NCBI GenBank assembly: GCA_021108035.1
Contig: JAIORQ010000079.1
Span: forward strand, 1-45,152
Length of the DNA stretch: 45,152 nt
Source: Bacteroidales bacterium
GTDB lineage: Bacteria > Bacteroidota > Bacteroidia > Bacteroidales > JAADGE01
Reading direction: 5' to 3'
Below are positions 4,786-29,714 of this stretch, in pieces (position 1 is the stretch's first letter; each line of letters begins with the position of its first letter). The notes below the pieces were generated by a model. The model was given only the letters and a program-made list of their open reading frames with translations. It was not told the DNA's origin and made no database searches. Both the position numbers and the translations under genes were made by a program.

Positions 4786-4814
4786 CAGATAGTTACTTAT
4801 AATCATCAATTGTG

Positions 4815-7800
4815 ATGAAAAAACACGACAAAACCAAAACATATTCCGACAGTAATAAAACAACAACTTACGGCGATTCCGAAAAACGCACTAAGGAAAC
4901 TGTCCATAATCTGAAAGCCGGTGATAATATTATTCTGAACAATAAAGAGTACAAAATTCTTGAAATTATTTCAGAAAGTACAGGCGAAGCAGTTATCTAT
5001 AAAATTGAATCAGTTACCCCTAAATCCCCTAAAGGGGACTTTGCCGCAGCTACCAAAAAGTCCCCTTCAGGGGATTTAGGGGCAAAACAGGCGAAAGCAA
5101 ATTTTAATCAAAAACAAAAAATCTATGCACTAAAGCTGTATTTTGAATTTAAAGACGCAGAAAATGAACCAAATACAGAAGCATTATCGAGGATTAAAAA
5201 TATTAAAGACATTGATATACTGTGTTTATATGATTTTGGAACAGGCATAAATAAATACAAAGGAAAATATTGTTTTGAAATTTCCGATTTTGCTCACGGA
5301 CATGATTTGTTAAAAGTTGAAAACCTGAAAGAAAAATATAAACCTGATTTCATTGAAAAAGAACTTATTTCGCAAATATTTAAAGGGATTTTGCGATTAC
5401 ATGAAAATCGTATTTATCATTGTGATTTAAAACCGCAAAATGTTTTTTATCTTGATAAAGAACAAATCGAAATTGTAATCGGGGATTACGGATCGGCAAA
5501 GACATTTGAATTTGATGCAGAGAAAAAATCGCGCAAAACCACAACAGTAAAAGGAACTGATTTTTATTTGCCGCCCGAACAAGCACGAGGTTTTATTTCC
5601 GAAAAAAACGATTACTATTCTTTCGGAATGATATTGTTGCATTTATTTTATCCCGAAAAAATACTGCTGAATGAGAATAGCCTGTCCCGTGATAACGGAA
5701 AACCAAAAAGTTTAAGTCATTCAAAATTAAAACAAATTATTGAGAGACAATTTGAAGCTAAACCGATAATTGATTTTAACCCAAAATTTAAAAGAATTAA
5801 CAGCCTGATTGAAGGATTAACTCTTGTTGATTTTAATTTGCGTTGGGGAAAAGAACAAGTTGAGCAATGGATTGAAGGTAGAGACATTGACTTAATTTAC
5901 AGAGAATCAACTTCTCTAAAAGTAGATTTACATAAGATTAAAGAGCAGTCATTAAAATTTGGCGAATATACTTTATCAACTCCGGATGACTTAAGAAACT
6001 ATTTACTTAATGATGATAATTGGTATGCCGATTTAATTGAAGATGAATATAATAAAGAAGACTTTATTAAATGGATGTTAAACTTATATACCGGTGATAT
6101 TAATATGCGTACAGCATTTAATAATATCATAAAATATTACAGCCAAGAAGGAGTCAACTTTGTTGCAGATGCCGTTATTCGCTTATTCATTCCGGAACAT
6201 CCTGTATCAGTCGGTATGCAATCATTTAATTTTGCTGAATCGGATGACATTTTGAAAACCACTACTCTTGCATTTTCTCATTTAATTTTTGATTTATGGA
6301 AAAGTTCGACAGATAAAGATATAAAACAATTTATTTTCAGTTATGAATTTGCATTAATACAATCAAAAAACAAAGTAAAAGCCATAAATATCTTAAAAAA
6401 TTTATATCGAATATTTTCTGTAAATAAAGATATTGAAAGTGATTTTGAAAATTATAAGGTTTATGCTTATACTAAAATAAACAAAAATTCCCTTGAAATT
6501 GTCAAAGAATTTCTGTTAGAATTATCAGCCGGTGATATCGAGATAATTGTAAACTCATTGGATAAAGTGAATAATTTGCAATATAAATTTATAAAATCAA
6601 CTTCAAGTTATTTTAAAAGTATCGGTATCGATAATGCACTGTACGATACAATTTCAGAAAATCAAACAATTGCTCTGAAATGCCCTGAAATTTTTGAATC
6701 TCTTGATGATTTTATTGAAAAAATCTATATAAGTTTTATAGAGAATATTGTTACTAAACACAAAATTACAAATGTTATTAGTCCCTCTTCAGTAAATAAA
6801 ATAAAAGAAACTTTAAAAAAGACATATCAAGATATCATTTACAATATTGAAAATGAATTAAGCTCTCTTGAAAAAGAATTTCCGGAAGAATTAAAATTGG
6901 TTAGAGGTTTCAGTATTGATATTATAAAACTAAAAAAAAATTCTCTTCAAAACATAAAATTTGATAAAGTCCAAAAAATCTATGAAGACATTCTTAGCTT
7001 AAAGACTGAATTAGAAAAAGTAGCAGAAGCAAAAGGAATTTTAAAACAATTTCATGACAGGGCCAATGAATCAAGCCTTGTTCTGCCATTATTGAAGATG
7101 GCCGAAAAACATATCAAATCAAATAATTATAAGGAAATAGAAAAAGCATGGCAAATTTTAACAAATGAGCATTCCTTTAAATGTGAATCACTCATAGATA
7201 TTCGGGATATTAAAAAACATGATCAGATATCTTATGAAAAAATGGGCATGTTCACAAGAATAAAAGTAGGTGGACCAATAAGTTTATTAGCTTTGAGCCC
7301 CGATGGGCAAAATATTGTTGTTGGAAATTACAGGAGTCTTAAAATACTTAATATAAAAAGAAAAGAAGTTGTTTCTACCATTGAAAATTCAGAACCTATC
7401 AAAGCATCTATAGCTATCAGTAAAGACAGTAAGAAAATTTCCTGCATTGATATTTTAGGTAATAAAGCTTCAGTTTTTGATTTAAAATCCGGTGAAGAAA
7501 TATATCATCTAAAAGAAATTGAACATTATCCTCGTGATGTATTATTTAGTGCCGATGACAAATATTTGGCGATTCCGGGACTTTTTTACACATTATTGTG
7601 GGATGTAAAAACCTGGGAACAAGATAAGCTGGTTGAAGGATCTGCACCCATTTGTTTTCATCCGTTTAAAAATTTATTAGTCTCGAGTAATCTTGTTAAT
7701 GAAATTATACTTATTGACATTAACACAAATGAAAGTTCAATTATTTCAAAGAAACGCCCTAATATTATTGATCAAATTTGTTTTAGCCCTGATGGTGAAT

Positions 7801-8201: not shown

Positions 8202-8202
8202 T

Positions 8203-8262
8203 AGAAGAGTCCAATCCGTAATAAACTATGAAAACATTGCTGAAAAAACTAGTTATGTCTAA
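8203..8262 (+). pseudogene. Fossil of the linker preceding an FGE-sulfatase domain
   Basis: Directly after the K1 stop, in the +1 frame, the DNA reads QSVINYENIAEKTSYV then stop. K6 has QSVVNYENITHKYIAS in the linker between its transmembrane helix and its FGE domain (near 23566). The DNA matches closely too (CAATC, AAACTATGAAAACATT). K1 therefore probably lost a membrane/FGE end by deletion plus frameshift. The match is short, so confidence is moderate. Confidence 0.5.
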
Positions 8263-8292
8263 AATTAAAATTCAATCCAAAAAATATGGATT

Positions 8293-11200
8293 ATGAAAGA
8301 ATCCAATAAAACAAAAGCCTATTCAGATAGTTGTAAAACAACCGTTTACGGCAACAACCAAAAACGAACAAAATCCTCTGTTCATAATCTGAAAGCCGGT
8401 GATAATATTATTCTGAACAATAAAGAGTACAAAATTATTGAAGTTATTTCAGAAAGTACAGGCGAAGCAGTTATCTATAAAATTGAAAATGCTGAAAAAA
8501 ATATACTTTCTTTAAAATTATATTTTGAGTTTCATGATTCTGAAAATGAACCAAATACAGAAGCATTATCAAGGATTAAAAATATTAAAGACATTGATAT
8601 ACTGCGTTTATATGATTTTGGAACAGGCATAAATAAATACAAAGGAAAATATTGTTTTGAAATTTCCGATTTTGCTCACGGACATGATTTGTTAAAAGTT
8701 GAAAACCTGAAAGAAAAATATAAACCTGATTTCATTGAAAAAGAACTTATTTCGCAAATATTTAAAGGGATTTTGCGATTACATGAAAATCGTATTTATC
8801 ATTGTGATTTAAAACCGCAAAATGTTTTTTATCTTGATAAAGAACAAATCGAAATTGTAATCGGGGATTACGGATCGGCAAAGACATTTGAATTTGATGC
8901 AGAGAAAAAATCGCGCAAAACCACAACAGTAAAAGGAACTGATTTTTATTTGCCGCCCGAACAAGCACGAGGTTTTATTTCCGAAAAAAACGATTACTAT
9001 TCTTTCGGAATGATATTGTTGCATTTATTTTATCCCGAAAAAATACTGCTGAATGAGAGTGAGCCAAAAAGTTTAAGTCATTCAAAGCTGAAACAAATTA
9101 TTGAAAGGCAGTTCGAAGCTAAACCGATAATTGATTACAATCCTAAGTACAAAAGAATTAACAGCCTTATTGAAGGTCTAACTTTGGTCGATTTTAACCT
9201 GCGTTGGGGAAAAGAACAAGTTGAGCAATGGATTAAAGGCGAACAAATTAATGTTATATATAAAAAATCAACACTATACTCTTCAGATGCAAAAATACAG
9301 GCGGATAAACGTTTAATTTTCGGCAAACATACTATAAACACTGTTTATGATTTAAGAGACTATATTTTAAATGTTCCTAATTGGTATAATGATCTTATAG
9401 AAGACAAGGATAACAGGAGCGATTTTACCGATTGGATGTTAAATCTTTACGACGGAGATAAAGGCAAACGCTCAGCATTTAATCGTATTGTCAGGCATTA
9501 CAGCCAAGAAGGTGTTGATATTGTTGCAGATGCAATAATACGTTTTTTTATTCCCGGCCATCCGGTGTTTTTTGGTTTAAAAATGTTCGATTTTAACGAA
9601 TCACCGGATTTAATGAAAACTACTGCTCTTGCTTTTTCGCATCTGATTTTTAATCTGTTGGAAAGTTCTTCCGACAATGATATTAAGCTTTATTTATTCA
9701 GATATGAATTTGCATTAAGGCAAATAGAAGAAAAACAGCCGGAAGTAATAAAATTATTGAATATTTTATACAAAAATCTTAATACACCGGAAGAAATAAG
9801 GCTTGATTTTATTAATTATAAAGTTTATGCCTATACATCCGGTTCAAAAAAATCAATAAATAACTTAAAGCAGTTCCTTTTAGAATACTTGCCGGCCAAA
9901 ATAAAGATTGATTTTGTTAAATTTAACGAACAAAATGAATTGCATTACAAGTTAGAAAAAACACTAACAGGTTATTTTACAGAAATCGGAATAAATAATA
10001 TATTAATTAAAGATAATTATGATGAAACTATTTCTGTAAATTATCCGGAAGATTATAAATCAGTTGAGGACTTTTATGAAAAAACAATTGATGTAATTAT
10101 AAACAGTATTTGTAATAAGCATTTGATTAAACGAGAAATGTTATTAGAAACCGGCTTGGATTTTTTTGAGATCAATTTTATAAACACTCATAACAGATTG
10201 TCTGACAGGCTAATAAACGAATATAACAAACTAAAAAAAAGTCTGTCTCTAATAACAAAACGGCAAAAATCCGTCAAAAATGATTTAAAGGAAGTTGAGT
10301 TAATCATTTCCGAAAAAAAATATCATAAAACTAATTCGGCTCTTCAATTAATATTAAAAATCCAAAGATATGATAAGGACCGATTCTTAATATATAAGCA
10401 AAAATTTCAAAATTTCATATCTCCAAAAAAAATAGCAATAAAAGCATTTACTAAAAAACATAAGTTGTTGATAATAGTCAGCTTACCTGTAATCATTACT
10501 CCTATAATACTTCTTTTAGATTCTTTATCATTGAATTATAATGAATCCGAAAATTTTGTTTTGGCAAATATTGAAATGATACATGTAAAAGGAGGAACAT
10601 ATAATATGGGGCATAAAATAGTAACAACTGATGAAATACCTTTACATACAGTAAGTTTGAATGATTTTTATATCAGTAAATATGAAATAACAAATGAACA
10701 ATTCTGTCTGTTTTTAAATAGTTATGATTCCGAAGAATTAAAATACGGATTAGATAAAGGGCAAAAAATTATATCTCTCAGTAATGAAGAAGAAAGAGAT
10801 TGGGGAATACACCGGACAGATAACAGTTGGTGTCCGAAAAGCGGATATGAAAAACACCCTGTTATTTATGTTACATGGTACGGTGCAAAAGAGTTTTGTG
10901 AGTGGGCAGACAGCAGACTGCCGAAAGAAGCAGAATGGGAATATGCAGCACGAGGAGGAAATAAATCAAAAGACTACAGTTATTCGGGAAGTAATAAACC
11001 GGAAGATGTTGCATGGTTTGACAGTAATTCAAAGAGCCAAACTCATAAAGTCGGGACTAAAAGCCCTAATGAACTTGATATTTATGATATGAGCGGTAAT
11101 GTTTTTGAATGGTGCGAAGATTGGTACTACCCGAAAAACAAACCTGTTAATCTGTCAACACCAAGAACAAAAGTACTTCGCGGCGGGTCTTACTATAGCG

Positions 11201-11301
11201 ACTATAACGGTAATTTGATTTTTTATCGTATGGGACGCCTGCCTGATAAATGTTTCAGCAATACAGGTTTTCGATTATGCAAGGATAATAAAGATCCTTA
11301 A
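8293..11301 (+). CDS. K2: transmembrane Ser/Thr kinase with FGE-sulfatase-like sensor end (1002 aa)
   Basis: Same tail and kinase core as K1 but without the palindromic insertion: beta-3 K75, HCD D172, N177, DYG D192. A middle region of the FGE-type class (about 345-715) leads to one transmembrane helix (about 725-745, with IIVSLPVIITPIILLL). An FGE-sulfatase fold follows (about 761-1000), with GGTYNMG, YEITNEQFC, RLPKEAEWEYAARGG, DMSGNVFEWCEDW, VLRGGSYYS and GFRLC. The cysteine pair of true formylglycine-generating enzymes after RGGS is absent, so a binding or structural role is more likely than catalysis. Predicted topology is kinase inside and FGE domain in the periplasm. The kinase part (8580-9055) is almost identical in DNA to K1. 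Confidence 0.88.
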   Translation: MKESNKTKAYSDSCKTTVYGNNQKRTKSSVHNLKAGDNIILNNKEYKIIEVISESTGEAVIYKIENAEKNILSLKLYFEFHDSENEPNTEALSRIKNIKDIDILRLYDFGTGINKYKGKYCFEISDFAHGHDLLKVENLKEKYKPDFIEKELISQIFKGILRLHENRIYHCDLKPQNVFYLDKEQIEIVIGDYGSAKTFEFDAEKKSRKTTTVKGTDFYLPPEQARGFISEKNDYYSFGMILLHLFYPEKILLNESEPKSLSHSKLKQIIERQFEAKPIIDYNPKYKRINSLIEGLTLVDFNLRWGKEQVEQWIKGEQINVIYKKSTLYSSDAKIQADKRLIFGKHTINTVYDLRDYILNVPNWYNDLIEDKDNRSDFTDWMLNLYDGDKGKRSAFNRIVRHYSQEGVDIVADAIIRFFIPGHPVFFGLKMFDFNESPDLMKTTALAFSHLIFNLLESSSDNDIKLYLFRYEFALRQIEEKQPEVIKLLNILYKNLNTPEEIRLDFINYKVYAYTSGSKKSINNLKQFLLEYLPAKIKIDFVKFNEQNELHYKLEKTLTGYFTEIGINNILIKDNYDETISVNYPEDYKSVEDFYEKTIDVIINSICNKHLIKREMLLETGLDFFEINFINTHNRLSDRLINEYNKLKKSLSLITKRQKSVKNDLKEVELIISEKKYHKTNSALQLILKIQRYDKDRFLIYKQKFQNFISPKKIAIKAFTKKHKLLIIVSLPVIITPIILLLDSLSLNYNESENFVLANIEMIHVKGGTYNMGHKIVTTDEIPLHTVSLNDFYISKYEITNEQFCLFLNSYDSEELKYGLDKGQKIISLSNEEERDWGIHRTDNSWCPKSGYEKHPVIYVTWYGAKEFCEWADSRLPKEAEWEYAARGGNKSKDYSYSGSNKPEDVAWFDSNSKSQTHKVGTKSPNELDIYDMSGNVFEWCEDWYYPKNKPVNLSTPRTKVLRGGSYYSDYNGNLIFYRMGRLPDKCFSNTGFRLCKDNKDP

Positions 11302-11393
11302 AAAAGATAAAAAATGAATTGCCGGTTCTGTCACTTTTAAAAATTTGTTAATCTTGTATCCTTTCAAAAAAATATAGCTTAAAAACCGGGATT

Positions 11394-14300
11394 ATGAAAA
11401 AATCCGACAAAACTAAAACATATTCCAACGAAAATAAAACGACAACCTATGGTGATTCAGGGAAACTCACAAAGGAAACGATTCATAATCTAAAAGCCGG
11501 TGAAAATATTATTCTGAACAATAAAGACTACAAAATTCTTGAAATTATTTCAGAAAGTACAGGCGAAGCAGTTATCTATAAAATTGAATCAGTTACCCCT
11601 AAATCCCCTAAAGGGGACTTTGCCGCAGCTACCAAAAAGTCCCCTTCAGGGGATTTAGGGGCAAAACAGGCGAAAGCAAATTTTAATCAAAAACAAAAAA
11701 TCTATGCACTAAAGCTGTATTTTGAATTTAAAGACCTGGAAAATGAACCAAATACAGAAGCGTTATCACGAATAAAAAATATTAAAGATGTTGACATTTT
11801 AAGACTTTATGATTTTGGAACGGGAATAAATAAATATGAAAATAAATATTGCTTTGAAATTTTAGACTTTGCACACGGGCTTGATTTGTTAGACGTAAAA
11901 AAACTGAAAGAAAAATATTCTCCTGATTTCATTGAAAAAGAAGTTATTCCGCAAATATTTCTCGGCATACTTAAACTGCACGAAAACAGAATTTATCATT
12001 GCGATTTAAAACCGCAAAATGTTTTTTATCTTGATAAAACACAAGTTGAGATTGTCGTAGGCGATTACGGATCAGCAAAGACATTTGAATTTGATGCAGA
12101 GAAAAAATCGCGCAAAACCACAACAGTAAAAGGAACTGATTTTTATTTGCCGCCCGAACAAGCACGAGGTTTTATTTCCGAAAAAAACGATTACTATTCT
12201 TTCGGAATGATATTGTTGCATTTATTTTATCCCGAAAAAATACTGCTGAATGAGAGTGAGCCAAAAAGTTTAAGTCATTCAAAGCTTAAACAAATTATTG
12301 AACGGCAGTTTGAAGCTAAACCGATAATTGACTTCAATCCGAAATACGAAAGAATTAATAAACTTATCGAAGGTTTAACACTTGTTGATTTTAATTTGCG
12401 ATGGGGAAAAGAACAAGTTGAACAATGGATAAAAGGCGAACAAATTGAAGTTATTTACCGAAAATCGGCAGAGACTCAATCCGGAACATCAACATTAGTT
12501 AAAAAAGCATTGAAATTCGGGAAATATACTATAAACACACCTTATGATTTAAGAGATTATATTCTGAACGATCCAAATTGGTATACCGACCTGATTGAAG
12601 ATAAGGAAAATAAGGAAGATTTCATCATATGGATATTAAACTTATATGACGGAAACCGAAGTAAACGTTCAGCATTTAACCGCATTATAAAATATTACAG
12701 CCCTGAAGGTATTGATTTTGTTGCAGATGCAATTATACGTTTCTTAATTCCCGAACATCCGGTAGTATTTGGTTTAAAGATGTTCGATTTTAAAGAATCA
12801 ACTGATTTAATAAAAACTACAACCGAGGCTTTTTCTCATCTTATTTTTAATCTGTGGGAAAATTCTTCCGATAAAGATATTCAGCTGTACTTTTTCAGAT
12901 ATGAATTTGCATTAAGACAACTGAAAGATAAACAACCGGAAGTAATAAATTTATTAAACATTTTATACAAAGAACTCAATAAAGAAGAGAAAATAAGTGA
13001 CGATTTTTATAACTATAAAGTTTTCGCTTATACATCAGTTTCAAAAAAAGCATTACAAAACATAAAGCAATTCCTTTATGAATCTTTATTAACACAAAGC
13101 ATTCTTGATTTTATTGAACTTAATGATAAAAATGAATTGCATTACAGTATAGGAAGAACACTGAATTCTTATTTTTCTGAAATCGGAATAAACAATTCAT
13201 TAACTGAATTAGGTTCTCCGGAAATTATTTCTGTAAGCTATCCTAAAGATTATAATTCCCTCGAAAATTTTTATGAAAAAACAATTGATGCTGTTATAAA
13301 CAGTATTTGCAATAAACATTCAATTACTGCAGAAACCTTTTCAGAAAACAGTTTGGAATTATTTAAAAGGAATTTCATAAATGCTTTCAACAGTTTGTCT
13401 GAAAAACTTGCAAATGAATATTATAAAATAAAAAAAGATCTTTCAATATTTATAAAATGGCGTTATCCGATTAATAATTACATAAAAAAAATTAAATTAA
13501 CAGTTAAGAAGAAAAAATATAATGAAATTAATTCAGCTTTTTATTTAATATCAAAAATCCGAAAATATGAAAACGACAAATTAATAAAAAAGAAACAAAG
13601 AATTGAAAAATTCATATCTCCGAAAAAAAGTGCAATAACAGAGTTTTATAAAGAAAATCGATATATAACAATAATGAGTCTTGCAGCATTTTTACTTACT
13701 GTTATAATTTTATTGAGTAAATTATATGAAAAGAAAGAAGCAGAAAACATCGTTTTTCCCCAAGTAGAAATGATACGCGTATGGGGCGGAGAATTTAATA
13801 TGGGATATTATGCAGGTCCTGAAAATAAAAAACCTTTACATACAATATATTTGAATTCTTTTTACATTAGTAAATACGAAATAACAAATAAACAATTCTG
13901 CTTATTTTTGAATGATTACGGTTACAAAGTAAAAGATAAAGATAATGAAAAAGAAAAAACAATCTCATATAGTAATAATGAAGAAAGGGATTGGGGAATA
14001 CACCGGACAGACAGCGGTTGGCATCCGGCTGCAGGATACGAAAATCACCCTGTTATTTATGTTACATGGTACGGAGCAAACGAATTTTGTAAATGGATAG
14101 GCGGCAGGCTACCGACTGAAGCAGAATGGGAATTTGCTGTACGCGGCGGAAATAAATCTGAAGCTTATAAATACTCAGGCAGTAATGAACTTAAAGATAT
14201 TGCATGGTATAATGATAATTCAGAAAATAAAACTCATAAAGTAGGAACTAAAAGCCCGAATGAACTTGGTATTCATGATATGAGCGGTAATGTTTTTGAA

Positions 14301-14495
14301 TGGTGCGAAGATTGGTACAAACCTAATAACAAACCTGTAAATCTAACAGAAGCAGAAGCAAAAGTACTTCGAGGAGGATCATACTACAGTGACAATAATA
14401 AAAATTCACTTTTTTATCGTACGGGCCACCTACCGAATAAAAGTTTCAGTAATATTGGATTTCGATTATGCAGTGATAAAGAATTAAATAATTGA
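11394..14495 (+). CDS. K3: transmembrane Ser/Thr kinase with FGE-sulfatase-like end (1033 aa)
   Basis: Layout as K2 but with the 32-codon palindromic insertion before beta-3 K107; D204, N209 and D224 follow. The transmembrane helix is about 757-778 (MSLAAFLLTVIILLSKLY) and the FGE-sulfatase fold about 791-1033 (GGEFNMG, RLPTEAEWEFAVRGG, SGNVFEWCEDW, VLRGGSYYS, GFRLC). The FGE catalytic cysteines are missing. The leader ATATAGCTTAAAA (11372-11384) is identical to the one before K7 (24374-24386), so the upstream DNA was copied with the gene. The start is preceded by GGATT as in K2 and K5. The sequence after its stop holds a broken copy of the radical-SAM gene start, as if K3 once ended an array. 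Confidence 0.88.
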   Translation: MKKSDKTKTYSNENKTTTYGDSGKLTKETIHNLKAGENIILNNKDYKILEIISESTGEAVIYKIESVTPKSPKGDFAAATKKSPSGDLGAKQAKANFNQKQKIYALKLYFEFKDLENEPNTEALSRIKNIKDVDILRLYDFGTGINKYENKYCFEILDFAHGLDLLDVKKLKEKYSPDFIEKEVIPQIFLGILKLHENRIYHCDLKPQNVFYLDKTQVEIVVGDYGSAKTFEFDAEKKSRKTTTVKGTDFYLPPEQARGFISEKNDYYSFGMILLHLFYPEKILLNESEPKSLSHSKLKQIIERQFEAKPIIDFNPKYERINKLIEGLTLVDFNLRWGKEQVEQWIKGEQIEVIYRKSAETQSGTSTLVKKALKFGKYTINTPYDLRDYILNDPNWYTDLIEDKENKEDFIIWILNLYDGNRSKRSAFNRIIKYYSPEGIDFVADAIIRFLIPEHPVVFGLKMFDFKESTDLIKTTTEAFSHLIFNLWENSSDKDIQLYFFRYEFALRQLKDKQPEVINLLNILYKELNKEEKISDDFYNYKVFAYTSVSKKALQNIKQFLYESLLTQSILDFIELNDKNELHYSIGRTLNSYFSEIGINNSLTELGSPEIISVSYPKDYNSLENFYEKTIDAVINSICNKHSITAETFSENSLELFKRNFINAFNSLSEKLANEYYKIKKDLSIFIKWRYPINNYIKKIKLTVKKKKYNEINSAFYLISKIRKYENDKLIKKKQRIEKFISPKKSAITEFYKENRYITIMSLAAFLLTVIILLSKLYEKKEAENIVFPQVEMIRVWGGEFNMGYYAGPENKKPLHTIYLNSFYISKYEITNKQFCLFLNDYGYKVKDKDNEKEKTISYSNNEERDWGIHRTDSGWHPAAGYENHPVIYVTWYGANEFCKWIGGRLPTEAEWEFAVRGGNKSEAYKYSGSNELKDIAWYNDNSENKTHKVGTKSPNELGIHDMSGNVFEWCEDWYKPNNKPVNLTEAEAKVLRGGSYYSDNNKNSLFYRTGHLPNKSFSNIGFRLCSDKELNN
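11596..11661. repeat. In-frame palindromic element, copy 2 (in K3)
   Basis: Base-for-base the same 66-bp inverted repeat as at 5017-5082, at the same codon position and frame. The adjoining 30 or so bases, through the codons for AKANFNQKQK, are also identical. Confidence 0.9.
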
Positions 14496-18056: not shown

Positions 18057-18132
18057 ATATCTTGGATTTTATTTATTATAATACTGAGTAAAAAGTTTTA
18101 AAGCATAGTTTAGTAAAATAATAATAAGGATT

Positions 18133-21100: not shown

Positions 21101-21297
21101 ATAATTATTATATTAAATCCCCTGAAGATAACCCTGTAAATTTAAATAAAAGTAATTATAAAGTAGTTAGAGGCGGCTCATACTACAGTAACAAAATTGA
21201 AATTTTACAATATTATCGTGATAAAGACCCTTCTGATACTCATTACTCAACTATTGGATTTCGACTATGCAGTAATAATAAAATAAATAATAACTAA
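18133..21297 (+). CDS. K5: transmembrane Ser/Thr kinase with FGE-sulfatase-like end (1054 aa)
   Basis: The kinase domain carries the insertion (K107, D204, N209, D224). Residues around 370-430, including KNWLEGKSVDVYYKK, match K4 and K7, but the following middle region switches to the FGE-type class of K2, K3 and K6, so the gene is a mosaic. A strongly basic stretch (RRIARRRFYRRN, about 738-750) precedes the transmembrane helix (about 757-778), which fits positive-inside topology with a periplasmic C-terminus. The FGE-sulfatase fold is about 803-1050 (GGTFIMG, RLPTEAEWEYAAGGG, SGNVLEWCEDW, VVRGGSYYS, GFRLC), again without the FGE cysteines. It starts 76 nt after K4. Confidence 0.88.
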   Translation: MKKHDKTKIYSDSNKTTAHGDAEKLTKETVHNIEVGDNITLNNKEYKILEIISESTGEAVIYKIESVTPKSPKGDFAAATKKSPSGDLGAKQAKANFNQKQKIYALKLYFEFKDAENEPNTEALDRIRNIKDIDILRLYDFGTSINKYKDKFCFEISDFAYGHDLLRVENLKEKYNPRFIEKELIPQIFKGILRLHENNIYHCDLKPQNVFYLDKEQTEIVIGDYGSAKTFEFDAEKKSRKTTTVKGTDFYLPPEQARGFISEKNDYYSFGMILLHLFYPEKILLNESEPKSLSHSKLKQIIERQFEAKPIIDFNPKYERINKLIEGLTLVDFNLRWGEKEVKNWLEGKSVDVYYKKEVLKTGVGEYSEKTLIFGTYKINSVYDLRDYILNEKNWYADLIEDELNQKDFMNWFRNLYGNDRSKSSKFFRIVEYYSQEGVDIIADAIIRFFIPEHPVILGLKSFDLNKSTDLKKTTALVFSHLIFNLWDSSSDKDIQLYFFRYEFALRQIKDEQPEVINLLNILYKELNTKEKISADFHYNRVYAYTSVSKKSLNNIKRFLCEYLPAKINIAYIKLNVQNELHYKLEKTLTNYYTEIGLNDIQIMYEFEETISVNYSADYHSVEDFYKQTIDTTIDSICKKHLISLKILIKSSLALFKKDFINDYNRMFKKIIDIYERFEKEIPKKIKQRDPVKSDLKEFESIITGKKYHKFYSAFLLFEKIDKYRHQLFLSQREKESGNYSDRRIARRRFYRRNNDLIWILSSLIGMALLFFLLYIISEMRNDFKSKKNYENFVDKGLAVEKIEMVYVAGGTFIMGNKEGQKHEKPEHSVILNDFYFSKYEITNEQFCHFLNIYNSDKVKEGEHKGEKMIYYSNKEDRQDQGVRYTKRGWRPSGGYEDYPVIYITWYGANEYCRWANGRLPTEAEWEYAAGGGYKSKGFKFSGSNNIDDVAWHEENSEETHKVGEKAPNELGIYDMSGNVLEWCEDWYSDNYYIKSPEDNPVNLNKSNYKVVRGGSYYSNKIEILQYYRDKDPSDTHYSTIGFRLCSNNKINNN
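18335..18400. repeat. In-frame palindromic element, copy 4 (in K5)
   Basis: Identical 66-bp inverted repeat at the same site. The DNA just upstream in K5 (for example GAAAGTACAGGTGAAGCAG) has its own substitutions, yet the element itself has none. Confidence 0.9.
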
Positions 21298-21338
21298 ACC
21301 TTTGTAAACAATGGGTTCCTTGTAATAAAAAATAAAAA

Positions 21339-21359
21339 ATGAAAAATGAAAAATGAAAA
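21339..21359 (+). repeat. Triple ATGAAAA heptamer at the K6 start
   Basis: ATGAAAA occurs at 21339, 21346 and 21353, giving three ATGs in three frames. Only the third opens the kinase frame; the first runs into TGA after five codons. Slippage here would move or remove the preferred start. Confidence 0.7.
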
Positions 21360-24300
21360 AAGACAAAACCAAAACATATTCCGGAAGTAACAAAACCTCT
21401 ACTTACGGTGATGCCGAAAAGCTCACAAAGGAAACTGTTCACAATATAAAAGCCGGTGATAATATTATTCTGAATAATAAAGAGTACAAAATTCTTGAAA
21501 TAATTTCAGAAAGTACCGGCGAAGCGGTCATTTATAAAATAGAAAACAAGAAAAAAAATATATTGGTACTAAAGCTGTATTACGAATTTCACGACCCTGA
21601 AAACGAACCAAATACAGAAGCATTATCAAGAATAAAAAACATAGAAGATGTTGATATTTTAAATTTAATTGATTACGGCACAGGAATAAACAAATATAAA
21701 GGAAAATATTGTTTCGAAATTTCTGATTTTGCTTATGGTCATGATTTGATGTTTATAGATAATTTCAAAGAAAAATACAGCCCTGATTTTATTATTAAAG
21801 AAGTTATATCTCAAATTTTTCTTGGAATTCAAAGACTGCATGAAAACAAAATTTATCATTGTGATTTAAAACCACAAAACATATTTTTTCTTGATAAAGA
21901 ACAAACAGAAATTGTAATCGGAGACTACGGTTCGGCAAAAACATTTGAATTCGATGCAGAAAAGCAATCACGAAAAACTACAACCGTAAAAGGAACAGAT
22001 TTTTATTTGCCGCCTGAACAAGCAAGAGGTTTTATTTCCGAAAAAAATGATTATTATTCTTTCGGAATGATATTACTGCATTTATTTTATCCAGAAGAAA
22101 TTCTGCTGAATGTAAATGAACCTAAAAGCTTAAGTCATTTAAAACTTAAACAAATTATTGAAAGACAGTTTGAATCTAAACCGATAATTGATTTCAACCC
22201 GAAATTCAAAAGAATTAACAGTTTAATCGAAGGCTTAACTCTTGAAGATTTTAACCTCCGTTGGGGAAAAGAACAAGTTAAGAAATGGATAAAAGGTGAA
22301 CAAATCAATGTAATTTATAAAAATTCTGCACAATATCCGTCGAATGCTGAAATTAAGGCTTTAATTTTCGGAGAATATACCATAAATACAGTTTATGACA
22401 TTAGAGATTATATTTTAAATGACCCCGATTGGTATGTTGACCTGATTGAAGATAAAGATAACAGAGCCGATTTTACTGAATGGTTTCTGAAACTTTACGG
22501 CGGTAATAAGAGCAAGCGTTCTGAATTTAACCGTATTGTTAAAAATTACAGTCAGGATGGTGTTGATTTTGTCGCAGAAGCAATAATTCGCTTCTTTATT
22601 CCGGAACATCCTGTAATATTAGGTGTGAAGACATTTGATTTTTACAATTCACCGGATTTAAAGAAAACCGTTGCTCTCACTTTCTCACATCTTATTCATG
22701 ATTTATGGAAAAGTTCGTCTGATAACGATATTAAACTCTATTTCTTCAGATTTGAATTTGCATTATGGCAATTAAAAAACCAACAACAGGAAGTATTGGA
22801 TTTGTTAACAATTTTATACAGAGAATTGAACATTAAAAAGAAGATAAAAACTGATTCTTTTGATTTTAAAGTTTATGCCTATACATCCGGTTCAAAAGAA
22901 TCTTTAAATAAAATAAAAAAATTTCTTTGTAAGTATTTACCTTCAAAAAGCAATATTAATTTTATTAGACTTAACGAACAAAATGGTTTAGATTATAAAA
23001 TTGAATTGACACTTGCACATTTTTTTACTGAAATAGGAATTGAAAATTCAATAATTGAAGATATAATTACAATTGACTATCCTGATAATTATAATTCAAA
23101 AGATGAGTTTTTTAAAAAAGTATTTGATACAACAATTAGTTCAATTTGCAATAATCACTTTATTAAAATTAAATTGATTTCAGATAACAGTTTGGAACAG
23201 TTTAAGAATGATTTTAAAAATGAATATAATAAGTTATTTGAAAATCTTAAACAAGAATTTCATAAATTAAAACAAGAAACTTCTCGAAAAATAAAACGAC
23301 AAAATCCGGTAAAAAGTAATTTAAAAGAAATTGAATCAATAATTTCAAAAAACAAATTTCATAAAATTAATGATGCTTTTTATTTTATTTATGAAATAAG
23401 AAGATACAGTAAAAAGCAGATTGAAATTCAGAAAAACAGAATTCATGAAGATAGAGTAAAAAAAAGAAACAGAAGAAGAAACATTTTTATTGCAATCCTT
23501 CCTATTATTGCAGTTGTTGTTTTATGGACTTTCCTTTTAAGGGATAAATGGTTGCCTAATATTCAATCAGTTGTAAACTATGAAAACATTACTCATAAAT
23601 ACATTGCTTCTAATAAAATAGAAATGGTGTTTGTAAAAGGAGGAACATTTATGATGGGGCATAAAGGAGGTCCGAAAAATGAAAGACCCTTACACAAAGT
23701 TAGCTTAAACGATTTTTATATAAGTAAATATGAAATAACAAATGAACAATTCTGTTGGTTTTTAAACATATATGGTTCAGATATAGTAAAATCCGGAGAA
23801 CATACCGGAGAAAAGATGATTTATTACAGTGATATTGAAGGAAGAGACTGGGGAGTAAATTATACTGAAGAAGGCTGGCGACCAAACGGCGGCTATGAAC
23901 ATTATCCTGTTGTTTATGTAACATGGTATGGTGCAAACGAATTTTGTATGTGGGCAAACGGAAGATTGCCTACAGAAGCGGAATGGGAATATGCTGCAAA
24001 GGGAGGAGATAAATCAGAAGGGTATAGATTTCCCGGCAGTAATAAAGTTTATGATGTTGCTTGGTGTTATGATAACTCTGATATAGAAACTCATAAAGTT
24101 GGAAAAAAAGACCCTAATGAACTTGAAATTTTCGATATGAGCGGAAATGTTTTCGAATGGTGTGAAGATTGGTATCATGCTGAATATTATATAGTAAGTC
24201 CCGAAAGCAACCCGCTTAATTTTGGAAAGACGGAATCAAAGGTACTTCGAGGCGGTTCATATTACACTTACAAAAAGGATTGTATGCCGTGCTATCGTAT

Positions 24301-24373
24301 AGGTGAATTTCCCGATAAATATTTCAGTAATTTCGGTTTTCGATTATGCAAATATAAGTTTATTGACGAATAG
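21353..24373 (+). CDS. K6: transmembrane Ser/Thr kinase with FGE-sulfatase-like end (1006 aa)
   Basis: Like K2, this copy lacks the palindromic insertion: IENKKKNILVLKLYYEF runs straight into beta-3 K74, with D171, N176 and D191. It is the most divergent kinase domain in DNA and seems to have escaped most of the homogenisation of K1-K5 and K7. A basic patch (KKRNRRRN) precedes the transmembrane helix (about 711-730, IAILPIIAVVVLWTFLL). The linker QSVVNYENI leads to the FGE-sulfatase fold (about 756-1000; GGTFMMG, RLPTEAEWEYAAKGG, SGNVFEWCEDW, VLRGGSYYT, GFRLC) without FGE catalytic cysteines. It ends 16 nt before the K7 start, suggesting co-transcription. Confidence 0.88.
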   Translation: MKKDKTKTYSGSNKTSTYGDAEKLTKETVHNIKAGDNIILNNKEYKILEIISESTGEAVIYKIENKKKNILVLKLYYEFHDPENEPNTEALSRIKNIEDVDILNLIDYGTGINKYKGKYCFEISDFAYGHDLMFIDNFKEKYSPDFIIKEVISQIFLGIQRLHENKIYHCDLKPQNIFFLDKEQTEIVIGDYGSAKTFEFDAEKQSRKTTTVKGTDFYLPPEQARGFISEKNDYYSFGMILLHLFYPEEILLNVNEPKSLSHLKLKQIIERQFESKPIIDFNPKFKRINSLIEGLTLEDFNLRWGKEQVKKWIKGEQINVIYKNSAQYPSNAEIKALIFGEYTINTVYDIRDYILNDPDWYVDLIEDKDNRADFTEWFLKLYGGNKSKRSEFNRIVKNYSQDGVDFVAEAIIRFFIPEHPVILGVKTFDFYNSPDLKKTVALTFSHLIHDLWKSSSDNDIKLYFFRFEFALWQLKNQQQEVLDLLTILYRELNIKKKIKTDSFDFKVYAYTSGSKESLNKIKKFLCKYLPSKSNINFIRLNEQNGLDYKIELTLAHFFTEIGIENSIIEDIITIDYPDNYNSKDEFFKKVFDTTISSICNNHFIKIKLISDNSLEQFKNDFKNEYNKLFENLKQEFHKLKQETSRKIKRQNPVKSNLKEIESIISKNKFHKINDAFYFIYEIRRYSKKQIEIQKNRIHEDRVKKRNRRRNIFIAILPIIAVVVLWTFLLRDKWLPNIQSVVNYENITHKYIASNKIEMVFVKGGTFMMGHKGGPKNERPLHKVSLNDFYISKYEITNEQFCWFLNIYGSDIVKSGEHTGEKMIYYSDIEGRDWGVNYTEEGWRPNGGYEHYPVVYVTWYGANEFCMWANGRLPTEAEWEYAAKGGDKSEGYRFPGSNKVYDVAWCYDNSDIETHKVGKKDPNELEIFDMSGNVFEWCEDWYHAEYYIVSPESNPLNFGKTESKVLRGGSYYTYKKDCMPCYRIGEFPDKYFSNFGFRLCKYKFIDE

Positions 24374-24389
24374 ATATAGCTTAAAAGAT

Positions 24390-27300
24390 ATGAAAAACGA
24401 TAAAACTCAAACATATACTGACAGTAATAAAACAACTGTTTACGGTGATGCCGAAAAGCTCACAAAGGAAACTGTTCACAATATAAAAGCCGGTGATAAT
24501 ATTATTCTGAACAATAAAGAGTACAAAATTCTTGAAATTATTTCAGAAAGTACAGGCGAAGCAGTTATCTATAAAATTGAATCAGTTACCCCTAAATCCC
24601 CTAAAGGGGACTTTGCCGCAGCTACCAAAAAGTCCCCTTCAGGGGATTTAGGGGCAAAACAGGCGAAAGCAAATTTTAATCAAAAACAAAAAATCTATGC
24701 ACTAAAGCTTTATTTTGAATTTAAAGACGCTGAAAATGAACCAAATACAGAAGCATTATCAAGAATTAAAGATATTGAAGATGTTGATATTTTAAATCTT
24801 CATAATTACGGAACAGGAATAAATAAATATGAAAGCAAATATTGTTTTGAAATTTTAGATTTTGCATACGGGCTTGATTTGTTGGATGTTAAAAACCTAA
24901 AAGAAAAATATACTCCGGATTTCACAGAAAAAGAAGTTATTCCTCAAATTTTTAAAGGAATTATAAAATTGCATGAAAATCGTATTTACCATTGCGACTT
25001 AAAACCACAAAATGTTTTTTATCTTGATAAAGAACAAGTTGAGATTGTCGTAGGCGATTACGGATCAGCAAAAACATTTGAATTTGATGCAGAGAAAAAA
25101 TCGCGCAAAACCACAACAGTTAAAGGAACCGACTTTTATCTTCCGCCTGAGCAAGCAAGAGGTTTTATTTCCGAAAAAAACGATTACTATTCTTTCGGAA
25201 TGATATTGTTGCATTTATTTTATCCCGAAAAAATACTGCTGAATGAGAATGAGCCAAAAAGTTTAAGTCATTCAAAGCTTAAACAAATTATTGAACGGCA
25301 GTTTGAAGCTAAACCGATAATTGACTTCAATCCGAAATACGAAAGAATTAATAAACTTATCGAAGGTTTAACACTTGTTGATTTTAATTTGCGATGGGGC
25401 GAAAAGGAAGTCAAAAATTGGTTAGAAGGCAAAAGTGTTGATGTATATTATAAAAAAGAAGTCTTAAAAACCGGTGTGGGCGAGTATTCTGAAAAAACTC
25501 TGATATTCGGGACTTATAAAATTAATTCAGTATATGACTTAAGAGATTACATCCTTAATGAAAAAAATTGGTATGCTGATTTAATTGAAGATGAAGAGAA
25601 CCGTGATGATTTTACGGAATGGATATTAAACTTGTATGCCGGTGACCGAAGCAAGCGTTCTGCATTTAATCGTATTGTAAAGTTATACAGTCAAGAAGGA
25701 ATTGATTTTGTTGCAGATGCAATAATTCGATTCTTTTTACCCGAACATCCTGTATCAATTGGTCTGAAATCATATAATTTTGCTGAACCGGATGATATTA
25801 TAAAATCCACTGCCTTGGCATTTTCTCATCTGATTTTTGATTTATGGGACAGTTCAACAGAGAAAGATATTAAACTGTTTATTTTCAGCTATGAATTTGC
25901 TTTAAGGCATATAAAAAATAAGGAGGAAGCTGACAGGATTTTAAAAATATTATATCAAAAACTTTCCCTTAATGAAAACACAGATGATGACTTTGAAGAC
26001 TGTAAAGTCCATGCTTACACCAAAATAAACAAAAGCTCCCTAAAAGCTGTCAAAGAATTTCTGACAGAATTATCAGCAAGTGATATTGAGATAGAGGTAA
26101 TCTCACTTGATAAAGAGAACAATTTGCATTATAATGTTATTAAATCTACTTACAGCTATTTTCAAAGTATAGGTATTGATAATACGCTGTCTGATATGTT
26201 TATTAAAAATCAAACAATTGCTTTAAGAATTCCGGAATCTTCAAAATCTTTTAATGATTTTATTGAAGAAACATTTGAAATTTTTTTAGAGGATTTTGTT
26301 AATAAATACAACATTAAAAACGAAATTAGTCCGACTTCTGTAAAAAAAATAAAAGAAACCTTTAAAACTACTTTTCAAAGTATCAGAGAAAATATTGAAA
26401 ATGAATTTTCTGACATGGTAGAAGCATATTCAAAAGAAATTGCATTAATTAAAGGTTTACATTTTGATATCAGTAATAAAAACAGGTTTCTTCAAAACAT
26501 AAGTTATGATAAAGTCCAACAAACATATGAAGATATTATTATTTTAAAGAGTGAATTGAAAAAAGCAGTTGAAGTAAAAGAAATTTTTAAGCAATGTAAA
26601 GAAAAGGCTAAAGAAACAAGCCTTGTAATACCATTATTGACGGAAGCCGGTAATCTTTTAAAAACCAATAATTATAAGGATATTGAAAAAGCCGGACAAA
26701 TTTTATCAAAAGAGCATTCTTTTAAGTTTGAAACACTTACTGATGTTACAAATATTAAGAAACACAAGCAAATATCTTATCAAAATACCGAGAGGTTTGA
26801 AAGAATAGATGCAGTTAAAATAATAGAATCATTAGCAGTAAGCTCCGACGGAAAAAAAATTATTACAGCTGCATTTTTCATGTATAAAACCTTGAGAATT
26901 ATCAATATAAAACAGAAAGAAGTTATATTGACTATTAATAAAACAGGATTTCCTCCTAAAAATATTTCAATCAGTAAAAACGGAGAATATATTGCTTGCA
27001 CCGGTACACATGATAAAAAGGCATTGGTTTACGACTTAAATTCCGGAAAAAAGATATGTACTATAAAAAAAGGTAATACTTATGCCCGAAATGCTATATT
27101 TAGTCCTGATAATAAATATCTCTCAGTTACAAGTTATGACAATACACTATTTTGGGACATAAAAACATGGAAACTTAAGAAAACAATTAAAACATCAGTA
27201 CCGATATGTTTTCATCCGAAAGAAAATTTATTGGCAAATGCGTTATATTCAGGTGAAATTGAATTAATTGATTTAAACACTAATGAAAGGTCAATTATTT

Positions 27301-29714
27301 CAGACAGACAAGAAGACAGTATAACAGAACTTTGTTTCAGCCACAACGGAAAATTGATTGCAAGCAGCAGCCATGATGATATTGTAAGGATTTGGAATGT
27401 CAGAACTACTGAATTAGTACACACCTTATCCGGACATGCACAATATCAGGAAAGTCATATTTGTTTCAGCCCTGACGGAAAAATTCTTGCAAGCCTTCTG
27501 AATTCCGGAGATGTAAGGTTTTGGAGTATGAATACCGGAGAACCGATTTTGACTCTTGAAGGTTTTGATTCAGTTAAGGGGCTTGCTTTTCATCCTGACG
27601 GTGATTATATTGTAGTAGGCGACCAATCACAGATAATCTTAATTTATCTGAAACATAAAGATTTGCAAACTCATAAAATGAGTATCCCGGATTTTATAAA
27701 TTATGAATTAAAGCAATCTGAAGAGAAAAAAAAGTTTAAAGCAGAAATCGTAAAAAGTAACTTCAAAAAAGATAAAGAAAAAGAATCTGATGATACATAC
27801 AGAGCAACTTTTTCTGATTCTGAAAATCGGGAAGAAGAGCAACCGGAAGAATTGCCTGAAATAATAATTGATTCTGAAAAAAGTAATATACAAGAAAATA
27901 TAGCGGATGTGTTTGGTTTAGATTCCCAAACAATAAGGCAAATAGAGGAAAAACGGAGAAGAAACAAAAGAACCATATTATTGATTGTAGTTGCGATACT
28001 TTTAATAATTGCCTCTGTTGTAATTGTTCAAAAGACTAATCTTTTCAATAAGCCTGCTGAACAAACTGTTACTGACTACAGTTATAAAAATGCCAAACGG
28101 TCAGGAATGGATTTAATTTTTATTAAAGGAGGAATTTTTAAAATGGGAGTTGAAAACGGCTACAAAGGAGAATACCCTGTCCATAATGTAATTTTAGGCA
28201 GCTATTATCTTGGCAAATATGAAATAACTAACGAACAATTCTCTCAATTTTTAAACGAATATGGTTCTGTTAAAGTAAAGAAAGGTGTATATCGAAATGA
28301 AGAAATATTGAGTGATGAAATTAATAATCCCGGAATAAGAAAAACAAGAAATGTTTGGAGTCCTTTACCCGGTTACGAAAAAAAACCTGTTGTTGAAATT
28401 ACTTGGTACGGAGCTAATGAATATTGCAAATATTACGGAGGCAGATTACCTACTGAAGCAGAATGGGAATTTGCAGCAAAAGGCGGAATATATTCTAATG
28501 ATTATAAATATTCCGGAAGTAATGAGGTAGATAATGTTATTTCTGCAAATGAAATTGGGCTGTTTTATATAACCGAAAAAGTTTGGAATTGGTGCGAAGA
28601 TACTTATGATGAGGATTATTTTGAAATCAGTCCTGTTTTTGATCCTTGCAATGAGAGGAATATGAAAACAATTTACGGACGATCCGGAAATACAGAACTG
28701 ACTCATAATGAGTCAAGATATTACACATACGGTAAAACAGTAGATAGAATTACTTATAAATCAATTCGAGGAAGTTCAAACGATAGTTATTCTTATCAAT
28801 CAAATATAGGAATAAGAAAATACTGTGAAAAATATAAGAAACAAAATGATTTAGGTTTTAGAATTTGTTTTAATGATACTCTTAATGAAAAAGAAAAACA
28901 GTTAGTCGAGAAATACAAAAATTACAGTTTGCAAATAGAAAAGAAAAAAGAATTGCAAAAATCCAAATTTAAAATGATTTATGTTAAGGGAGGAGAATTT
29001 AAAATGGGTAACGATTACAACAGAACAATAAGAAGAGTACATTCTGTAAAATTAAGTGATTTCGGAATTAGTAATTTGGAAATATCAAATAATTATTTTT
29101 GTAATTTTTTAAATTCGTACGGATCGGATACAGTTAAATCCGGAGAATTTCAAGGAAAATTAATGATTAAATCAAGTACTGTTTCTAAATACAGTAATTG
29201 GGGAATTTATAAAGTAGATTACACATGGCTTCCTGTTGAAGGCTATGAAAATCATCCTGTTATATATGTCAGTTGGTACGGTGCAAATGAATATTGCAAA
29301 TATTACAGTGGCAGATTACCAACCGAAGCAGAATGGGAATTTGCAGCACGCGGAGGTAAAAAAACAAGAGATTACCCATATTCCGGGGGAGGTAATATTG
29401 ATGAAGTCTCTTGGTATTTATCTAATTCAGACAAAACAACTTATAAACCCGGAACAAAAAAATCCAACAGACTCGGAATTTACGATATGAACGGAAATGT
29501 TCAAGAATGGTGTGAAGATACATACGATTTCAGATATTACAGAGATAGTCCGTATAAAAATCCGTGTAATCTTGAACTCGGCAAATACAAGATTGTAAGA
29601 GGAGGTGCATATACAAACTCGGCAAAACAAATAAGTCTTTATAACAGGTATAAGCAAAAACCCGGTGAATTCAATAATAAAACAGGATTTCGTATTGTAT
29701 TTCAGATAAAATAA
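24390..29714 (+). CDS. K7: Ser/Thr kinase with WD40, transmembrane helix and two FGE-sulfatase domains (1774 aa)
   Basis: The start at 24390 is chosen because MKNDKTQTY aligns with all paralogues; an in-frame ATG at 24303 would overlap K6. The kinase has the insertion and K106, D203, N208, D223. WD40 blades are about 812-1090, followed by an acidic linker (EEEQPEELPE) and a transmembrane helix about 1194-1214 after RRRNKR. FGE domain 1 (about 1239-1500) is degenerate: the SGNVxEW segment is replaced by NEIGLFYITEKVWNW and it holds an insertion before GFRIC. FGE domain 2 (about 1527-1774) is more typical (SGRLPTEAEWEFAARGG, MNGNVQEWCEDT, IVRGGAYT). Neither has the FGE cysteines. It combines both sensor types of the array and may represent the ancestral layout or a fusion. 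Confidence 0.86.
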   Translation: MKNDKTQTYTDSNKTTVYGDAEKLTKETVHNIKAGDNIILNNKEYKILEIISESTGEAVIYKIESVTPKSPKGDFAAATKKSPSGDLGAKQAKANFNQKQKIYALKLYFEFKDAENEPNTEALSRIKDIEDVDILNLHNYGTGINKYESKYCFEILDFAYGLDLLDVKNLKEKYTPDFTEKEVIPQIFKGIIKLHENRIYHCDLKPQNVFYLDKEQVEIVVGDYGSAKTFEFDAEKKSRKTTTVKGTDFYLPPEQARGFISEKNDYYSFGMILLHLFYPEKILLNENEPKSLSHSKLKQIIERQFEAKPIIDFNPKYERINKLIEGLTLVDFNLRWGEKEVKNWLEGKSVDVYYKKEVLKTGVGEYSEKTLIFGTYKINSVYDLRDYILNEKNWYADLIEDEENRDDFTEWILNLYAGDRSKRSAFNRIVKLYSQEGIDFVADAIIRFFLPEHPVSIGLKSYNFAEPDDIIKSTALAFSHLIFDLWDSSTEKDIKLFIFSYEFALRHIKNKEEADRILKILYQKLSLNENTDDDFEDCKVHAYTKINKSSLKAVKEFLTELSASDIEIEVISLDKENNLHYNVIKSTYSYFQSIGIDNTLSDMFIKNQTIALRIPESSKSFNDFIEETFEIFLEDFVNKYNIKNEISPTSVKKIKETFKTTFQSIRENIENEFSDMVEAYSKEIALIKGLHFDISNKNRFLQNISYDKVQQTYEDIIILKSELKKAVEVKEIFKQCKEKAKETSLVIPLLTEAGNLLKTNNYKDIEKAGQILSKEHSFKFETLTDVTNIKKHKQISYQNTERFERIDAVKIIESLAVSSDGKKIITAAFFMYKTLRIINIKQKEVILTINKTGFPPKNISISKNGEYIACTGTHDKKALVYDLNSGKKICTIKKGNTYARNAIFSPDNKYLSVTSYDNTLFWDIKTWKLKKTIKTSVPICFHPKENLLANALYSGEIELIDLNTNERSIISDRQEDSITELCFSHNGKLIASSSHDDIVRIWNVRTTELVHTLSGHAQYQESHICFSPDGKILASLLNSGDVRFWSMNTGEPILTLEGFDSVKGLAFHPDGDYIVVGDQSQIILIYLKHKDLQTHKMSIPDFINYELKQSEEKKKFKAEIVKSNFKKDKEKESDDTYRATFSDSENREEEQPEELPEIIIDSEKSNIQENIADVFGLDSQTIRQIEEKRRRNKRTILLIVVAILLIIASVVIVQKTNLFNKPAEQTVTDYSYKNAKRSGMDLIFIKGGIFKMGVENGYKGEYPVHNVILGSYYLGKYEITNEQFSQFLNEYGSVKVKKGVYRNEEILSDEINNPGIRKTRNVWSPLPGYEKKPVVEITWYGANEYCKYYGGRLPTEAEWEFAAKGGIYSNDYKYSGSNEVDNVISANEIGLFYITEKVWNWCEDTYDEDYFEISPVFDPCNERNMKTIYGRSGNTELTHNESRYYTYGKTVDRITYKSIRGSSNDSYSYQSNIGIRKYCEKYKKQNDLGFRICFNDTLNEKEKQLVEKYKNYSLQIEKKKELQKSKFKMIYVKGGEFKMGNDYNRTIRRVHSVKLSDFGISNLEISNNYFCNFLNSYGSDTVKSGEFQGKLMIKSSTVSKYSNWGIYKVDYTWLPVEGYENHPVIYVSWYGANEYCKYYSGRLPTEAEWEFAARGGKKTRDYPYSGGGNIDEVSWYLSNSDKTTYKPGTKKSNRLGIYDMNGNVQEWCEDTYDFRYYRDSPYKNPCNLELGKYKIVRGGAYTNSAKQISLYNRYKQKPGEFNNKTGFRIVFQIK
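24589..24654. repeat. In-frame palindromic element, copy 5 (in K7)
   Basis: Identical 66-bp inverted repeat at the same codon site as copies 1-4. Confidence 0.9.
25251..26001 (+). repeat. 751-bp tract identical between K7 and K4
   Basis: Partner of 15633-16383. The last shared bases are GACTTTGAAGACT; the next base differs. Confidence 0.85.

Follow-up and report, generated by a model that had tools for sequence, protein, structure and literature searches.

Analysis of a window of 45,152 nucleotides from a Bacteroidales bacterium (by window we mean the whole stretch of DNA that was analysed) revealed a complete unit of twelve genes, all on one strand between positions 1213 and 31921, which encode a coiled-coil protein (CC), a AAA+ protein, seven Ser/Thr kinases, a radical SAM protein, an FHA protein and a PP2C phosphatase. 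We propose, giving this reading even weight for and against, that the locus encodes a AAA+/radical-SAM module which is gated by kinases, has gained an expanded array of sensors and likely acts in a conflict response. A defined six-gene unit of this kind, in which a kinase, a phosphothreonine reader, an eraser and a AAA+ machine are encoded together, occurs across several phyla.

The seven kinase genes (K1 to K7) are paralogous and lie head to tail on the + strand from 4815 to 29714, as determined from the open reading frames and Pfam. The earlier note, which had described this array, had assigned the same interval to the locus; it holds for the kinases but not for the unit as a whole. Upstream lie the genes for CC (1213..2763, +; 516 aa) and the AAA+ protein (2905..4785, +; 626 aa), and downstream those for a small, NrdG/PFL-activase-like radical SAM protein (29888..30505, +; 205 aa), the FHA protein (30506..31126, +; 206 aa) and the PP2C phosphatase (31202..31921, +; 239 aa). 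One gene each was found for the ClpB-like AAA+, radical SAM, FHA and PP2C proteins that had been said to flank the array. The claim that a single FHA and a single PP2C protein are shared is correct as anatomy, one of each being present; that they serve all seven kinases is what we infer. Further downstream, the window encodes a secreted protein (37824-39836) whose translation shows a LamG-type domain, four near-identical repeats and a C-terminal sorting domain, followed by a Fic/death-on-curing-like protein (39967-40887), which matches a PADLOC candidate model at E 7e-115, and by an AbiTii protein (43303-44238; E 1.7e-23).

All seven kinases retain the motifs HCDLKPQN and DYG, and with them the residues of an active Ser/Thr kinase (HxD, the conserved N and DxG), so that all of them look active. 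K1 shares 57-66% identity with the other six. In each copy the kinase domain is followed by a middle region and then by a tail made of WD40 repeats, of a transmembrane segment plus an FGE-sulfatase fold, or of both, as the earlier note had stated and as was confirmed by Pfam and by the simple hydropathy scan with which hydrophobic segments were called: (i) K1 (4815..8201, +, with an alternative GTG start at 4812) and K4 (14769..18056, +) end in WD40 repeats (about 7257-8123 and about 17163-18026, respectively) and have no hydrophobic segment, (ii) K2 (8293..11301, +), K3 (11394..14495, +), K5 (18133..21297, +) and K6 (21353..24373, +) each carry one hydrophobic, putative membrane segment (10465-10521, 13662-13718, 20410-20466 and 23483-23539, respectively) and one FGE-sulfatase-fold domain (10573-11280, 13764-14468, 20542-21267 and 23621-24349, respectively), and (iii) K7 (24390..29714, +) combines WD40 repeats (about 26823-27752), one hydrophobic segment (27972-28028) and two FGE folds, the better one at 28971-29699. 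The ORF list places the start of K7 at a GTG (24303) within K6; the start that lines up with those of the other kinases is an ATG at 24390. Basic stretches precede the hydrophobic segments in most copies, which argues for a location of the FGE domains on the outer side of the membrane. When the FGE domain of K2, the only copy aligned, was compared with the solved enzyme 6muj, both enzyme cysteines of the aligned stretch, which we take to be the catalytic pair, were absent; we therefore read this domain as a non-catalytic, ligand-binding fold.

Ahead of the kinase fold, the kinases bear N-terminal extensions that are short, variable in length and marked by a repeated TxxY motif (4815..4919, +, in K1, with the equivalent stretch at the start of K2 to K7). 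Six of the seven window kinases have two copies and K5 has one. Among the relatives, two to four copies were counted in the loci L080, L082, L084, L085, L086 and L089; the L088 kinase has one TxxY and two SxxY, while that of L090, whose gene start is possibly missing, shows TTGI repeats and no TxxY. In the extensions of nine kinases taken as independent, Thr and Tyr occur at exactly the +3 spacing 21 times, as against at most 4 times for each of the other spacings from +1 to +9. Shuffled extensions contained a mean of 2.53 TxxY and none of 20,000 shuffles reached 21, a figure that overstates the case because the pattern was picked after the sequences had been seen and because repeats within one protein share ancestry. 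Across 15 kinases, 32 TxxY fall within 792 extension residues, versus 50 within 15,224 residues elsewhere. The two kinases of an Aristaeella plasmid (Bacillota) carry TxxN instead, seven times, a number reached in 2 of 20,000 shuffles.

FHA domains bind phosphothreonine and discriminate at the +3 position, for which reason the TxxY tails are probably docking sites of the FHA protein encoded by the locus. This protein matches the FHA family (E 5.5e-11) and has at either end a zinc-ribbon-like stretch with a CxxC pair; in nine relatives the four N-terminal and four C-terminal cysteines are invariant, as are S98, H101, N120, G121 and T122, and the residues expected of a phosphothreonine reader (GR, S, H and N) are present. 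The exception is L088, where V replaces the usual R of the FHA protein; together with the Ser that takes the place of Thr in two of the three kinase repeats, this single case fits a loosened reader-motif pair. The presence of TxxY at the N-termini of all seven window kinases lends support to the earlier proposal that many inputs converge on one phosphothreonine reader.

The AAA+ protein matches Pfam AAA_2 (E 1e-50) and a ClpB profile (E 1.5e-77 over residues 298-620). Its second, ClpB-like domain (best stretch 3943-4464) has the Walker A, the Walker B and a GYVGY loop, while residues 1-290 (2905-3774) have no Walker A and, searched alone, matched no Pfam family even at E<=1. This N-domain is 46-59% identical in 10 close relatives and 22% identical in a distant one. 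In a Foldseek comparison with solved structures, an AlphaFold model of the protein (mean pLDDT 78, pTM 0.49) was most similar to Clp proteins of the two-ring kind (over 500-700 alignment columns, TM about 0.4, best E 6.7e-27), and the N-terminal part of a 570-aa AAA protein of Bacteroidota is similar to the N-domain (E 1.3e-15). On these two grounds, the N-domain is likely a degenerate first AAA+ domain that has lost its P-loop. The 570-aa protein (L101:9674-11383) belongs with similar ones of up to 599 aa in L100 and L102-L106, all of which pair a P-loop-less N-domain with a classical AAA second domain.

The catalytic or binding residues of the AAA+ protein are conserved in relatives, as are those of the FHA and radical SAM proteins. 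The radical SAM protein (Cx3Cx2C; Fer4_12, E 6.7e-29) scores 99.6 bits with the NrdG profile, below the cut-off of 126.1, and C28, C32, C35 and a GGEP motif are invariant in 10 relatives. The phosphatase matches PP2C_2 (E 6.4e-06) and a Stp1/IreP profile (E 1.1e-33). CC matched no Pfam, PADLOC or NCBIfam family; its N-terminal MSGPK is invariant in 9 aligned relatives. According to AlphaFold (mean pLDDT 81), CC consists of helices and a small beta domain at the C-terminus; the model had no PDB match with E<=0.001, and a profile search of the PDB gave one weak coiled-coil match (BibA, E 0.0017).

As the rest of the set is common, the AAA+ N-domain was used as the search handle for the distribution of the locus. 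Within the order, 4 of 393 genomes matched: the source genome, two at 47-50% identity and one remote match. This draw also contained 3 further genomes of the same genus and 1 further genome of the same family, all without a match. With the full-length AAA+ query, three candidates being scored per genome, 114 other genomes out of 395 of the phylum matched, those listed doing so through the ClpB part, and no second full-length match was seen. In viral contigs, the matches to an AAA+ alignment query were confined to the general Clp domain and an N-domain query retrieved no relative; the phage records searched gave no match. When 84,980 species genomes were scanned with patterns, 13 confirmed loci with the AAA+ family emerged, a lower bound given that the scan needs exact short patterns. 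The records are labelled Bacteroidetes, Bacteroidales, Ignavibacteria, Desulfobacteraceae, Spirochaetia and others, labels that for short contigs, such as a 3.7-kb 'Heimdallarchaeota' contig, may be binning errors.

The AAA+ gene is accompanied in these 13 loci by genes for FHA (n = 10), CC (n = 10), kinase (n = 9), radical SAM (n = 9) and PP2C (n = 6) proteins, and all six families are present in 5 loci (L080, L084, L086, L088 and L089). Seven of the remaining 8 loci end at contig or sequence ends; the eighth, L087, is a real exception: its flanks are complete, yet within 10 kb the AAA+ gene is joined only by an FHA gene, those for kinase, CC, radical SAM and PP2C all being absent. Since this grouping of families recurs in other phyla, their co-occurrence goes beyond chance. 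Apart from L087, the survey bears out the conserved grouping whose absence the earlier note had named as grounds for refutation, in 5 of the 13 loci and on the Aristaeella plasmid. The kinase array itself did not prove to be a general feature: all 8 relatives with a kinase gene over most of its length have a single one (L078 shows a fragment), and Aristaeella has two. In a Marinifilum locus (L074:1870-6590), the PP2C gene is followed by three tandem genes for related membrane proteins of 507-515 aa that have no Pfam match.

Searched by tblastn against plasmids, the AAA+ N-domain of the window matched 18 records and the G411 version 11. Eight plasmid regions were examined, six from organisms on the list of the window N-domain and two, from Polaromonas and Leisingera, from the G411 list only. 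It is this single-sequence search that gives independent evidence for the kinship of the AAA+ proteins, because a profile comparison shares the window and G411 sequences in both alignments. A protein annotated as 4Fe-4S single cluster adjoins the AAA+ protein in 7 of the 8 regions; the exception is Geminocystis, with the two separated by about 9 kb and the 4Fe-4S protein upstream. On the Aristaeella plasmid all six families are present in the order helicase, kinase, MSGPK-type CC, FHA, radical SAM, AAA+, PP2C and second kinase, which makes it the 1 region of the 8 where a DUF4011-helicase-nuclease lies next to a complete set. Five other regions (L114-L118), from the proteobacterial genera Acinetobacter, Photobacterium, Polaromonas, Leisingera and Moellerella, share a five-gene cassette (helicase, PIN, hypothetical, AAA+, radical SAM), the identity of the SF1 helicase and PIN proteins being confirmed for Acinetobacter and taken from the annotations 'AAA domain' and PIN for the other four; this cassette looks like a candidate defence system in its own right. 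On a Rhizobium plasmid, the AAA+/radical-SAM pair adjoins a gene (L113:12473-18730) whose 2086-aa product fuses kinase, DUF4011, SF1 helicase and MTES_1575 nuclease domains, and the G411 locus joins PLD-like, helicase and Ppx/GppA genes to such a pair. With partners varying from locus to locus, the pair would be the constant part and the partner the part that changes. Homology between CC of the kinase-type loci and a neighbour protein of the helicase type was unsupported (hhalign probability 0.2%).

It is mainly these helicase, nuclease and PIN partners, that is, guilt by association, that led us to propose a conflict role for the AAA+/radical-SAM module, a role that they suggest but do not prove. 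In the Bacteroidota-type loci, the neighbouring genes show no clear link to defence: PADLOC, run on ten Bacteroidota-type and plasmid neighbourhoods, found mostly nothing, apart from one partial viperin-like match in L088. The protein concerned (L088:1174-2745; 524 aa, E 9.9e-16) is encoded about 1.4 kb upstream of the PP2C gene.

The same phospho-relay could instead serve ordinary envelope, stress or developmental signalling, with the AAA+ protein changing a housekeeping complex, and of the alternatives this is the one we take most seriously, as a genuine though minority possibility. The FGE and WD40 tails are general sensors, most Bacteroidota-type loci lack recognisable defence neighbours, and a part resembling the AAA+ N-domain occurs in the 570-599-aa AAA protein, which was found with the N-domain profile in 8 of 395 phylum genomes (all of the matches in other genomes) and which, in the one genome scanned, has metabolic and transport genes as neighbours. 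What speaks against housekeeping is the patchy presence of the locus (4 of 393 genomes of the order), the plasmid carriage and the helicase or nuclease partners of related AAA+/radical-SAM pairs, and the genes for AbiTii and Fic-like proteins that lie downstream at a distance of up to 13 kb.

Identity among the kinase genes is mosaic. The longest identical runs measure 752 nt (K4/K7), 453 nt (K1/K2) and 406 nt (K4/K5), and the same pairs drop to 44-79% in later windows; overall, the heads are alike and the tails have diverged, to 41-85% in the last 150-nt windows. This pattern, which supports the earlier view of interchangeable sensor ends, is the trace that gene conversion would leave, although an assembly effect could do so too. 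Five of the seven kinases contain an in-frame palindromic element, with no DNA strand assigned, in the loop that connects strands 2 and 3 of the kinase domain (5014..5085 in K1, 11593..11664 in K3, 14968..15039 in K4, 18332..18403 in K5 and 24586..24657 in K7). A 105-nt stretch from this element is identical in all ten pairs of the five copies, while its flanks differ at 17-31 places in 195 nt upstream and at 37-63 places in 300 nt downstream. K2, K6 and the relative L078, whose AAA+ protein is 98% identical, are devoid of the element. The complete palindrome occurs in the genome at the five kinase sites and once on another contig (C76), with five single arms elsewhere, and was not seen in 12 relatives. 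It recalls the in-gene palindromic elements that Rickettsia carries.

Given that relatives manage with one kinase, or two in Bacillota, the seven-fold array appears to be a local, recombining expansion of the kinase gene. That it is instead a neutral tandem duplication, or in part an assembly error, with no bearing on the convergence of inputs, seems to us quite improbable: identical runs of up to 752 nt are hard for short-read assembly and a single kinase suffices elsewhere, but none of the seven reading frames is interrupted, the active-site motifs are intact in each, every copy is distinct in sequence, and the tails differ as they do in spite of the similar heads.

For the kinase-gated module that we favour, the following sequence of events may be envisaged. 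Each kinase would join a cytosolic head to a tail of its own, WD40 repeats being suited to cytosolic partners and a membrane segment with a non-catalytic FGE fold to a periplasmic ligand. Once a signal is sensed, the kinase would phosphorylate the TxxY repeats of its own N-terminus or of a neighbour's; the FHA protein would bind these phosphothreonines and bring in the AAA+ protein, whose active ClpB-type ring and P-loop-less domain would then remodel a partner, most likely the adjacently encoded CC. It may be at the MSGPK end of CC that the radical SAM protein acts, by modification or activation, which is a guess on our part, and PP2C would return the system to its resting state. Such a switch would likely serve in responding to infection or to another conflict. 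Multiplication of the kinase gene, with the copies exchanging sequence by gene conversion, would keep the heads alike and leave the tails free to differ. We hold only tentatively, and consider somewhat unlikely as a whole, the bolder idea of an undescribed class of conflict systems in which a repertoire of receptor kinases acts through phosphorylated N-terminal TxxY or TxxN tails on FHA, and through it on a AAA+ unfoldase that presents the MSGPK end of CC to the radical SAM enzyme, the repertoire diversifying by duplication and gene conversion around a constant docking head. Should the conflict role be true, the locus would be an example from bacteria in which many receptors feed a single response machine through recombining copies. 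The TxxY repeat is a short linear motif open to peptide testing, and the locus draws attention to the part that a small, activase-like radical SAM enzyme may play in a phospho-switch.

Control of type VI secretion combines a kinase, an FHA protein and a PP2C, with ClpV in the machine (PMC10482370), and the earlier note had drawn this parallel. Kinship of the locus with that threonine phosphorylation pathway (PpkA, Fha and PppA with ClpV), in control of a contractile machine, is very improbable even though a membrane kinase, FHA, PP2C and a ClpB-like AAA+ protein supply the same activities. The one sheath family tested (VipB, of TssC/VipB) had no match in the 95%-complete genome while an E. coli control matched, no Tss gene was seen among the scanned neighbours of the loci, and the pathway, as described, includes neither a radical SAM nor a CC protein (PMC10482370). 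We rejected type VI control because VipB was not found in the genome, and retain the parallel as an analogy only. Least probable of all, and rejected since no reverse transcriptase of a diversity-generating retroelement (DGR) with template and variable repeats was found, is that the FGE ends are DGR targets: FGE-type lectin folds are known as such (PMC10907252) and the solved relatives include Treponema variable protein 1, but the one reverse transcriptase match of the genome lies on another contig (L001), where it is probably CRISPR-linked because the adjacent ORFs look, by eye, like Cas1 and Cas2, and no repeat is shared with the window at better than E 0.14.

Compared with known systems, the locus resembles the type VI pathway in uniting a sensor kinase, an FHA reader, a PP2C eraser and a ClpB-like AAA+ protein in one set (PMC10482370), and would likewise convert a signal into controlled assembly or disassembly. 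It differs in its radical SAM and CC proteins, the P-loop-less, probable first AAA+ domain, the cytosolic WD40 tails and the number of kinases, seven, with no sheath gene found. In multicellular bacteria, sensors with DGR-diversified FGE/lectin folds sit on signalling proteins, kinase fusions included, and they share with the window the use of an FGE fold as a putative ligand sensor (PMC10907252); variation in the window, in contrast, would come from duplication and gene conversion, no DGR having been found. Mokosh-type defence (PADLOC MkoA and MkoB) is approached through the helicase beside the related AAA+/radical-SAM pairs, which matches MkoA (E 8.7e-96 in Acinetobacter and 1.2e-92 in G411), whereas the window has no helicase and its kinases match MkoA through the kinase domain only. 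Texts retrieved for the PADLOC names ZacA and ZacB were all unrelated. The FtsH ternary systems have a P-loop-less first AAA+ domain, a radical SAM protein, nearby helical proteins and a proposed conflict role (Kaur et al. 2020, PMC7159879). The window has a radical SAM protein, a helical protein and a AAA+ protein whose N-terminal part, without P-loop, is probably a first AAA+ domain, but where the active domain there is of FtsH type around a vWA-MoxR core (PMC7159879), here it is of ClpB type (AAA_2) and joined by kinase, FHA and PP2C, with no vWA or MoxR among the 20 window proteins scanned. Literature searches on the gene combination returned only the FtsH ternary paper and works that, to judge from their listings, do not describe the set, subscription papers lying mostly outside the scope. 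Overall, the signalling logic is a familiar one, while the gene set and the TxxY motif appear to be undescribed in the literature searched.
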